Source of the DNA: Synechococcales cyanobacterium PMM_0003
GTDB lineage: Bacteria > Cyanobacteriota > Cyanobacteriia > Pseudanabaenales > Pseudanabaenaceae
NCBI GenBank assembly: GCA_949128015.1
Contig: CASBRC010000217.1
Coordinates: 1 to 8,031 of the forward strand
Length of the DNA: 8,031 nt
Direction of reading: 5' to 3'
Shown: positions 6,488 through 7,527 of the stretch, piece after piece
How positions within the stretch are numbered: position 1 is the first letter of the stretch
How the letters are laid out: every line of letters starts with the position of its first letter
The notes under the pieces: generated by a model
Seen by the model: only the letters and a program-made list of their open reading frames with translations
What the model was told of the DNA's origin: nothing
Database searches by the model: none
Made by a program: the position numbers and the translations under genes

Positions 6488-6693
6488 AAGTTTCCTTAGA
6501 ATTTCTTTATCATTTCCATTGCGATCGCTGTCGCAAATGGTGGAGTCGTGCCGACATCGAGCCACAAATTGGCGAGCAAGTTTACTGTCCATACTGCGGT
6601 CACATCAACACTGTTGAAGCCGTCCAAACTTTTCGCAATGCGGCAAGGGGGGGCAGTTGCCTAAGTCAACGCCCCGACAATCAAGAAAAATGA
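6484..6693 (+). CDS. Small zinc-ribbon protein, 69 aa
   Basis: A 69-residue protein with two CxxC knuckles, CDRC (Cys13, Cys16) and CPYC (Cys35, Cys38), the second followed by GH. This is a textbook zinc-ribbon arrangement. FHCDRCRKWWSRADI and QVYCPYCGHIN form the knuckle regions, and the last 20 residues look disordered. The start ATG 6484 shares the sequence ATGA with the Uma2 stop, so it is likely translated by termination-reinitiation. The family is not recognised; small ribbons of this kind may bind nucleic acid or protein partners. A run of seven G (6647-6653) near the 3' end is a possible slippage site: a one-base change there would alter only the tail. One HIP1 site (6521). Palindrome A starts within 40 bp of the stop and may end the transcript. 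Confidence 0.82.
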   Translation: MKVSLEFLYHFHCDRCRKWWSRADIEPQIGEQVYCPYCGHINTVEAVQTFRNAARGGSCLSQRPDNQEK

Positions 6694-6702
6694 CATAGAT
6701 TA

Positions 6703-6809
6703 GTACAGCCTATTGAGGCTTTAAAGGGTACAGAGAAATTTTTGAAAGTGCCGCTTCGCGGCACTTTCAAAAATTTCTCTGGGTTTCATGGCAACGCAAA
6801 GCGTTGTAA
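6703..6809. repeat. Palindromic element A (107 bp, TTACAGC-type ends)
   Basis: The centre is the TTC loop at 6755-6757. The arms 6731-6754 and 6758-6781 are a perfect 24-bp inverted repeat. Beyond them the pairing decays, but the ends (G)TACAGCC at 6703 and GTTGTAA at 6809 lie exactly 53 nt each side of the centre, as in elements B and C. The left arm (6703-6754) matches the left arm of C at 41 of 52 ungapped positions, including an exact 15-mer TACAGCCTATTGAGG (6704-6718). The right arm matches B at 36 of 52. These are hand counts. It contains a nested hairpin CAACGC-AAA-GCGTTG (6792-6806). The 38-bp-distant stem may terminate the upstream operon. Confidence 0.8.
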
Positions 6810-6832
6810 TGAATTGCCATTATGTTTTGACA

Positions 6833-6855
6833 CTCTCAGCGCTGAAGCGACTGAG
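6833..6855 (+). repeat. Hairpin CTCAGCGC-TGAA-GCG(A)CTGAG
   Basis: The stem CTCAGCGC/GCG-CTGAG has one bulged A (6850) and a TGAA loop. Seventeen bases at 6833-6849 recur at 7171-7187 with one change. The form resembles subterminal hairpins near TnpB-type IS200/IS605 ends in cyanobacteria. Positions 6856-7140 hold short open frames but no gene I can support. Confidence 0.4.
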
Positions 6856-7144
6856 ATTCTTGAATAGCCTATTACTAAGCTTCAAGGGCATTGTCAAAAT
6901 ACCCCTAGACGCTCAAAACAACTGGCTTTCGCCGATGCAATTGCGCTTACTTGTGTGTTTTATATTTTCTGAGTCCATCAAATTAGAAGTTATCGCGCTC
7001 CACGATTGACTATTGCTTGTCTGCTCAGGCTACGGATATACCGAGACGAAACAAATCAGGAGTTACACCTTATCAAATCGATTCTTTGCACGGATGGTTA
7101 TTCTTACTCACTTTCTAATTATAATGCATTTGTTGAAAGAATAA

Positions 7145-7201
7145 GGCGGTTGAAACCGCCGTTCGCTTACCTCTCAGCGCTAAAGCGCGGAGCTTCCCGC
7201 G
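7145..7201 (+). mobile_element. Possible right-end remnant of an IS200/IS605-type element
   Basis: Three small hairpins are packed together: GGCGGT-TGAA-ACCGCC (7145-7160), GCGC-TAAA-GCGC (7177-7188) and the competing CGCGG/CCGCG (7186-7190/7197-7201). The phrases GTTGAAAC, CGCTTACCTCTCAGCGCT and GGAGCTTCCCGC resemble, from memory, the 3' ends of cyanobacterial tnpB elements, where such structures form the omega-RNA guide scaffold and the cleavage end. No tnpA or tnpB gene is present in the window, so this could be a solo end or a decayed fragment. Confidence 0.4.
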
Positions 7202-7216
7202 TATCGTATGTTTCGG

Positions 7217-7357
7217 TGATTTTACATTAGCACTTACAGCGCTTTGCATTCAAAACCGAACCAGTAAATTTTTTGAAAGAGTTGCAAAGCAACTCTTTCA
7301 AAAAATTTACTGGTTCGGTTTTGAATGCAAAGCGCTGTAAGTGCTAATGTAAAATCA
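7217..7357. repeat. Palindromic element B: 69-bp perfect inverted repeat
   Basis: The arms 7217-7285 and 7289-7357 are complementary at every one of 69 positions, around an AAA loop (7286-7288). The central tip is GC-AAA-GC. The TTACAGC/GCTGTAA pair at 7234 and 7340 lies 53 nt from the centre, as in A and C, and the symmetry continues 17 bp further out on each side. The left arm shows the right-end sequence type (GCAAAGCGC...) instead of the CCTATTGAGG seen in A and C. This suggests it was rebuilt by inverted duplication of the right half. Confidence 0.92.
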
Positions 7358-7380
7358 ATATAGATAGAGCGCTCAACACT

Positions 7381-7487
7381 TTACAGCCTATTGAGGGTTT
7401 GAGTGATATAGATAATTTTTTGAAAGTGTTGCGAAGCAACACTTTCAAAAAATCTTTTGTGGTTCGTTTGATCGGTAATTGCTGTAT
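7381..7487. repeat. Palindromic element C (107 bp, TTACAGC-type ends)
   Basis: The centre is the GAA loop at 7433-7435, with perfect 18-bp arms (7415-7432/7436-7453) reading ATTTTTTGAAAGTGTTGC. The ends TTACAGC (7381) and GCTGTAT (7487) lie 53 nt from the centre. The left arm shares TACAGCCTATTGAGG with element A. The outer right arm has diverged (TGGTTCGTTTGATCGG). It sits 40 bp after the matching end of B and 40 bp before the GAF gene, so it occupies that gene's leader or promoter. A small AGCGC-AAG-GCGCT hairpin follows at 7491-7503. Confidence 0.8.
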
Positions 7488-7527
7488 GTCAGCGCAAGGC
7501 GCTTTATCGTTGTCGGAATAATTGATT

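Follow-up and report, generated by a model that had tools for sequence, protein, structure and literature searches.

Probable IS630-type MITE copies in a cyanobacterial contig, with a central palindrome likely rewritten by template switching

The stretch of DNA analyzed here, an 8,031-nucleotide contig referred to as the window, carries three palindromes of constant size, elements A, B, and C. They raise the questions of what kind of unit they represent and how their perfectly paired stems arise and are kept. The best explanation, to which we assign a probability of about 0.85, is that A, B, and C are nonautonomous copies of an IS630-type MITE that is likely moved by an IS630 transposase, and that the core palindrome has likely been rewritten by template switching.

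Geometry of the three elements in the window

A preliminary description of the locus, made from the sequence alone, had recognized three members of one family with a fixed geometry. The centers that it gave (6756, 7287, and 7434) and its half-length of 53 nt are exact for all three. It had also proposed a 107-bp unit with the ends TTACAGC and GCTGTAA. The ends lie where they were placed, but the extent must be reduced: the element proper, CAGC...GCTG, measures 101 bp and lies between TA dinucleotides. Because the TA on either side belongs to the target, TTA/TAA is not a constant end (element A reads GTACAGC..GTTGTAA). The features are as follows.

6704..6808, + strand: element A, TA to TA (101-bp CAGC..GTTG inside); left end type 1 (CAGCCTATTGAGG), right end GCGC type
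6707..6720, + strand: left terminal mini-hairpin of A, AGCCT-attg-AGGCT, resembling an IS630-type inverted repeat
6731..6781, no strand: central perfect hairpin of A from the palindrome scan, 24-bp stem, loop TTC
6793..6805, + strand: right terminal mini-hairpin of A, AACGC-AAA-GCGTT
7217..7357, no strand: 141-bp perfect palindrome that includes B, 69-nt arms, loop AAA at 7286-7288; template-switch product or assembly fold-back
7235..7339, no strand: element B, TA to TA, GCGC type at both ends
7382..7486, + strand: element C, TA to TA, chimeric: its left half is type 1, its right half type 2, and the junction falls in the common core
7415..7453, no strand: central perfect hairpin of C, 18-bp stem, loop GAA
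7487..7506, + strand: orphan GCGC-type end (TGTCAGCGCAAGGCGCTTTA) behind C, from comparison with loci L052 and L024; its history is a reconstruction

Copies of the family have two kinds of end on one side (type 1, TACAGCCTATTGAGGCTTTAAAGGGTA; type 2, TACAGCAATTAYCGATCAAACGAACCAC) and a third kind on the opposite side, TACAGCGCTTTGCGCT followed by ..AAAACCCAG in type 1 or by CAAACCC(A/G)AACC in type 2. Both end types sit on one shared hairpin core. The arms had been called divergent, which holds for their outer parts, because the two ends belong to different types. It does not hold for the inner stem of about 24 bp (d 2-25), which is paired in almost every copy: 2-3% of pairs are mismatched within a copy, versus 10-13% differences between copies.

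Element A is a normal type-1 copy. The left end of C (CAGCCTATTGAGG) is of one type and its right end (GATCGGTAATTGCTG) of the other, with an orphan CAGCGCAAGGCGC end at 7487-7506. The sequence past the last TA of C, TGTCAGCGCAAGGCGCTTTA, resembles a type-1 right end, as comparison with L052 shows. This arrangement suggests that a type-1 copy received a type-2 copy at the TA of its ..TTTTATGTCAGCGC.., after which the stretch between the two cores would have been lost; the orphan end is probably the remaining right end of the type-1 element that was hit. Elsewhere in the window, CTCTCAGCGCTRAAGCG is repeated at 6833-6849 and 7171-7187 and resembles an isolated GCGC-type end that lacks the remainder of the element. 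Three further long palindromes with short GC-closed centers, at 112-165, 680-727, and 775-835, lie between predicted open reading frames and belong to other repeat families.

Element B is fully symmetrical because both of its ends are of the GCGC type, and its palindrome runs past the 107-bp ends proposed earlier by 17 nt, and past TA..TA by 18 nt, on each side. Symmetrical forms do occur, since PCC 7429 has a symmetrical copy with unlike flanks (L238 9963, 53-nt arms, in a draft genome) and a half-converted copy with a GCGC end on a type-2 arm (L289 9951). A template-switch event would have made B symmetrical, and the extension into the flanks could be either a template-switch product or an assembly fold-back. 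We consider it unlikely, though worth weighing, that fold-backs account for this extension and for some of the loop orientations described below. Draft contigs often end in such palindromes (L044 and L054), contigs of PCC 7429 start in the core, and the window comes from an assembly that is 77% complete and split into 503 contigs, of which it is one. However, nonpalindromic sequence flanks B on both sides, and the symmetrical copy in PCC 7429, itself also from a draft, argues for a genuine form. Furthermore, 8 of the 10 loop inversions found at stems of at least 8 bp lie in palindromes of 19-33 bp, which are shorter than ordinary reads.

Copy number, target site, and IS630 relatives

The core pattern TTTGAAAG-N15-CTTTCAAA, searched with up to two mismatches, has 110 sites in the window's own 3.1-Mb assembly versus 4 for a reversed-pattern control. 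The MITE family itself has fewer than 110 copies, because 9 of the 50 places listed among these sites are a second repeat (L001, L006, L012, L024, L035, L038, L044, L054, and L057). This second repeat shares the TTTTTTGAAAG stem start with the MITE; its center is mostly GGCAGCC-TAC-GGCTGCC, often with another hairpin adjoining, and its flanks are different (CAATTCTCATTATAAAAATTGG on one side) and not TA/CAGC-ended. The loci fetched from the assembly hold 67 distinct cores, and those lacking both ends are the second repeat, two chance matches, or cut or end-decayed copies.

To delimit elements, we required at least 13 paired positions out of 16 in the stem flanking a 3-nt loop, and then both TACAGC/GCTGTA ends with at most one change in total; half-lengths of 39-66 were allowed and ties were broken toward 52. 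In the window this search returns A, B, and C and nothing else. Across the loci retrieved from three genomes there were 168 detections: 39 from the window's own assembly, 73 from G015 (which we infer to be Pseudanabaena biceps PCC 7429), and 56 from G037 ("Roaring Creek"). Places fetched twice are included in these figures, which correspond to 162 distinct copies (35, 72, and 55, respectively). The expectation of many copies with one half-length was borne out: the TA-to-TA length is exactly 105 bp in 142 of the 168 detections, and the half-length is 52 on the left in 151 and on the right in 152. The family is a feature of the genus. All 18 genus genomes searched with at most one mismatch hold 25-164 core sites each, and an asymmetric pattern of the family was positive in 26/26 Pseudanabaena genomes. 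Outside the genus but in the same class, 1 of 11 genomes had a single match, which was nonpalindromic. Nested repeats occur as well: at L181 2404, L265 9967, and L296 4794 the MITE lies within copies of another palindrome family (AAGTTAAGAAATGGC), each time at the identical TA.

The preliminary description had found no target-site duplication, but the TA inside its TTA/TAA ends is the duplication, and five clean empty sites keep a single TA. Queries with 129 detections from PCC 7429 and Roaring Creek yielded 24 rows in which both flanks were found in one locus of the other strain. Exactly TA lies between the flanks in 6 of these rows (5 loci); the other 18 were set aside because their flanks were poor or repetitive or the gap differed from 2. 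The best case is L092 12929 versus L093, with flanks 97.8 and 95.0% identical. It is the only one of the five loci with clearly orthologous flanks. The other four lie inside other repeats, where the empty partner may be a paralogous site that is still informative about the target. The single TA at the empty sites, together with the terminal repeats described below, indicates an IS630-type MITE with TA duplication. The suggestion that relatives would have empty sites thus holds for other members of the family and not for A, B, and C, whose own empty sites were not found: their neighborhood is not conserved among relatives, and in 16 of the 19 loci from relatives the match to the window breaks off at about 6677-6691.

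Transposases of the IS630 family (Pfam DDE_3) are present in 26/26 genus genomes. Terminal repeats of the MITE kinds were found at 6 of the 30 transposase loci examined; the rest have other repeats or none, and many are cut by contig ends. These six elements measure 934-1065 bp. Three carry type-1 terminal inverted repeats (TACAGCCTATTGAGG.., in L132, L135, and L148) and three type-2 repeats (TACAGCAAATTCCGATCAAAC.., in L121, L127, and L145). With one end each scored for five of the six elements (L121 was left out), the IS end matched the MITE end of the window's own assembly at 23 (L132), 18 (L135), 20 (L148), 22 (L127), and 21 (L145) of 26 bases. Only one MITE end matches IS630 in this way. 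For the GCGC end the likeness consists of CAGC plus, in type 2, portions of the inner repeat, and this end occurred on none of the IS elements whose ends were found. The element thus belongs to a known kind, the IS630-type (Tc1/mariner-like) MITEs, and combines two end types with a single core; the MITE-like character proposed earlier is upheld by TA insertion, constant length, and ends similar to those of IS630-family elements.

At 101 bp the element is too short to encode a transposase. Judging from the shared ends, the MITE is likely moved by the enzyme of IS630-family elements with similar ends: an IS630-family transposase of the genus with similar terminal repeats would cut and paste the 101-bp unit at TA. 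A transposase gene with matching ends, which the preliminary description had anticipated, was found in other genomes of the genus but not in the window's own assembly. The sole IS630 transposase there is unrelated to either parent, and its element (L119) is rejected as the parent, with ends only 13/26 alike to the MITE end. This absence is weak evidence because the assembly is 77% complete. Roaring Creek likewise yielded no parent IS, the only trace of one being a 39-residue fragment akin to the type-1 parent; PCC 7429 yielded a type-1 element but no type-2 parent, though type-2 copies are abundant in it; both strains are rich in type-2 copies. Drafts lose IS copies, and a parent in these two strains stays putative. 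In another genome of the genus, G002, one contig carries an IS630-family transposase gene in 22 copies that score equally and lie at separate positions, with type-1-like ends at the copies whose ends were viewed (L135, L319, L322, L326, L330, and L334), which suggests recent activity.

The closest parallel for the transposon is RUP of Streptococcus pneumoniae, described as 107 bp with 108 intergenic copies, a TA target, ends like those of IS630-Spn1, and stops in all frames (PMC2229807). The likeness is one of description rather than of compared sequences, and the Pseudanabaena element differs in its host and in having two end types on one shared core. The same source describes the Correia/NEMIS (about 107/155 bp) and ERIC (127 bp) elements as likewise short and stem-loop forming with TA termini, and assigns them RNA-level roles; here too descriptions, not sequences, were compared (PMC2229807). 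Nezha, cited in PMC10969869, is, to go by its title alone, likewise a MITE of cyanobacteria. A central stem with a flipping 3-nt loop does not appear in the available part of the RUP description (PMC2229807).

Inversion of 3-nt loops

With orientation fixed by the element ends and arms, the central loop of 151 copies reads TTC in 51, GAA in 32, TTT in 26, AAA in 24, TAA in 7, TTA in 6, and each of five other triplets once. The 5-bp mini-hairpin of the GCGC end, intact in 113 copies, rarely flips, unlike the central loop of the same copies. Its loops in the same two classes are AAA 86 and TTT 1, and GAA 9 and TTC 1; the remainder are AAG 1, CTT 1, AAT 12, AGT 1, and CAA 1. Among 132 standard-length copies there are 13 disjoint pairs with at most one difference outside the loop, and their loops are the same in 4, one substitution apart in 3, exact inversions in 3, and inverted with one further change in 3. 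This evidence for flipping rests on paralogous copies, and stepwise change through TTA/TAA (13/151) is possible. No 107-bp copy could be placed with confidence at one and the same site of both strains; the one possible case (L201/L264) lies in repeat flanks.

Orthologous palindromes of other families provide a direct comparison. Palindromes with a 3-nt center were followed through 149 kb of alignments from four strain pairs, mostly Roaring Creek and PCC 7429, at 6.0% substitutions per site; loci sharing a contig with another (L205 with L093, and L236 with L092) were left out of the count. With stems of at least 10 bp, exact inversion, in which all three bases change, was found at 9 of 27 sites; 9 others were unchanged, 3 had single substitutions, 5 had other multiple changes, and 1 was gapped. 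One of 4 sites was inverted with stems of 8-9 bp, versus 1 of 481 with stems of 4-7 bp (11 of these gapped). The contrast by stem length is strong (Fisher, 6.5e-12 with gapped sites dropped). All nine long-stem inversions come from the Roaring Creek/PCC 7429 pair, and five of them have GTA/TAC loops and related arms ending in ATGGC. Exact spacer inversion thus depends on arm length in other palindrome families of the genus, and within the MITE itself the evidence is indirect.

The arms change in concert as well. The 20 palindromes with ungapped cores contain 345 stem pairs, of which 13 were altered on both sides and still paired, 15 were broken, and 317 were unchanged. By our own arithmetic, assuming independent changes at 6% substitutions per site, about 0.4 paired double changes would be expected. 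Loop inversion together with paired arm changes fits the published signature of replication template switching. In Saccharomyces cerevisiae, template switching at short inverted repeats is reported to homogenize the arms and invert the spacers, with inversions only where arms exceed 9 bp and ten spacer inversions in coding genes (PMC8604942). For rRNA hairpins, complete loop inversion is described as rare and as a mark of interstrand switching (PMC8794818). Exact inversion of short spacers, including 3-nt loops, perfect arms of more than 9 bp, and homogenized arms are shared with these cases as they are described (PMC8604942 and PMC8794818). Unlike in those cases, a third of the long-stem palindromes compared here are inverted between genomes that diverge by about 6%, and the hairpin is carried by mobile elements. 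In chloroplast DNA, loops between inverted repeats of at least 18 bp are reported in either orientation within species (PMC2903610); those loops are 25-27 bp long and lie in a plastid spacer, whereas the Pseudanabaena loops are 3 nt long in a free-living cyanobacterium.

Template switching during DNA replication would rewrite the central palindrome repeatedly and invert its loop, and we infer that it, rather than another process acting on inverted repeats, does the flipping. A loop could also be turned round through conversion by a paralogue in the opposite orientation. On that alternative the unit is still an IS630-type MITE, with the flips and perfect arms arising from recombination among oppositely oriented copies instead of template switching within single copies. 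The many copies with a common palindromic core, the origin of C as a recombinant of two types, and the GCGC end on a type-2 arm at L289 9951 are what such recombination would produce. We nevertheless judge it improbable, because inversions occur in palindromes with unchanged arms (for example, L204 5127) and, as in yeast template switching (PMC8604942), track stem length. In addition, one inversion lies in a frame that is open across the 200 codons examined in Roaring Creek (L194 4885 versus L258; stem of 8-9 bp), where the loop is TTT versus AAA in PCC 7429, giving Phe versus Asn.

Perfect palindromes across the genus

In 0.98 Mb of PCC 7429, perfect palindromes with arms of at least 12 bp and loops of 0 to 8 nt number 8, 46, 18, 456, 45, 26, 11, 28, and 9, respectively, a peak at 3 nt (456/647). 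Among the 3-nt loops, 430/456 are GC-closed and 271/456 are GNA or TNC. Such palindromes number 271 in 0.58 Mb of Roaring Creek, 66 in 0.33 Mb of 17 further genus loci, and 5 in 0.29 Mb of cyanobacteria outside the genus; none was found in seven noncyanobacterial loci (0.12 Mb) or in a first-order shuffle. The densities of 464 and 466 per Mb in PCC 7429 and Roaring Creek are biased upward, as the stretches were picked for holding the element; the 17 other loci, picked by a glycosyltransferase gene, have 203 per Mb. Clustering affects the reading of these counts. Single-linkage arm clusters chained most palindromes together, and with one palindrome per cluster only 4/16 in PCC 7429 were GC-closed, which argues against the triloop reading. 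With complete linkage, 3-nt loops fell into 49 clusters and other sizes into 5-19; 35/49 were GC-closed and 19/49 GNA/TNC. Counting once per cluster thus keeps a smaller 3-nt excess, and some eight large repeat families contribute much of the copy number. The peak is unusual because four-base spacers are the commonest in bacteria: a survey of 118,019 genomes reports mostly four-base spacers in bacterial inverted repeats, and spacers more polymorphic than expected (PMC13155455).

This loop-size distribution also bears on whether selection at the RNA level, for terminators, RNase III sites, or mRNA-end signals, keeps the stems paired, with mobility incidental. A, B, C, and the three other palindromes of the window sit between longer open reading frames, and ERIC and Correia elements are described as acting on mRNA (PMC2229807). 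Such selection, however, predicts compensatory changes and not exact loop inversion, and against it stand the sharp peak at 3-nt, GC-closed loops, the lack of a T run directly after the stems of A, B, or C, and the lack of any Rfam family at the gathering threshold in the window, which also removes a known RNA family from consideration. We regard this explanation as very unlikely. Chance hairpins, which the preliminary description had already dismissed, are ruled out by the copy number and controls (none in the shuffle), and its alternative of a REP-like unit, like REP/BIME generally, is rejected on account of TA insertion and IS630-like CAGC ends, REP/REPIN being described as 20- to 40-bp palindromes tagged GTAG or CGTC at one end (PMC3733652).

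Mini-hairpins of the GCGAAGC type, with a GNA loop and two G-C pairs, are reported to be extraordinarily stable DNA structures (PMC4686876). A tentative wider reading, which we place somewhat below even odds, is that Pseudanabaena is a hot spot of hairpin rewriting. A GC-GNA-GC mini-hairpin (or its complement) would tip many of the hundreds of perfect palindromes per megabase and would trigger fold-back and so drive template switching; the arms would be built and kept perfect, the loop would flip several times faster than point mutation, and IS630-type MITEs would spread the core. The genus may then offer a free-living counterpart of chloroplast hairpin inversions.

As a transposon the element is ordinary, one more IS630-type MITE that is abundant across the genus. 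Among the open-access matches listed, no paper dealt with such an element or with loop inversion in Pseudanabaena. The loop inversion matters more than the identity of the transposon. It provides a bacterial system in which a one-step mutation of all three loop bases, and sometimes of both arms, is frequent enough to be seen between strains. The origin and upkeep of perfect hairpins thereby become testable in culture, and phylogenies of strains should not treat these loops as independent substitutions.
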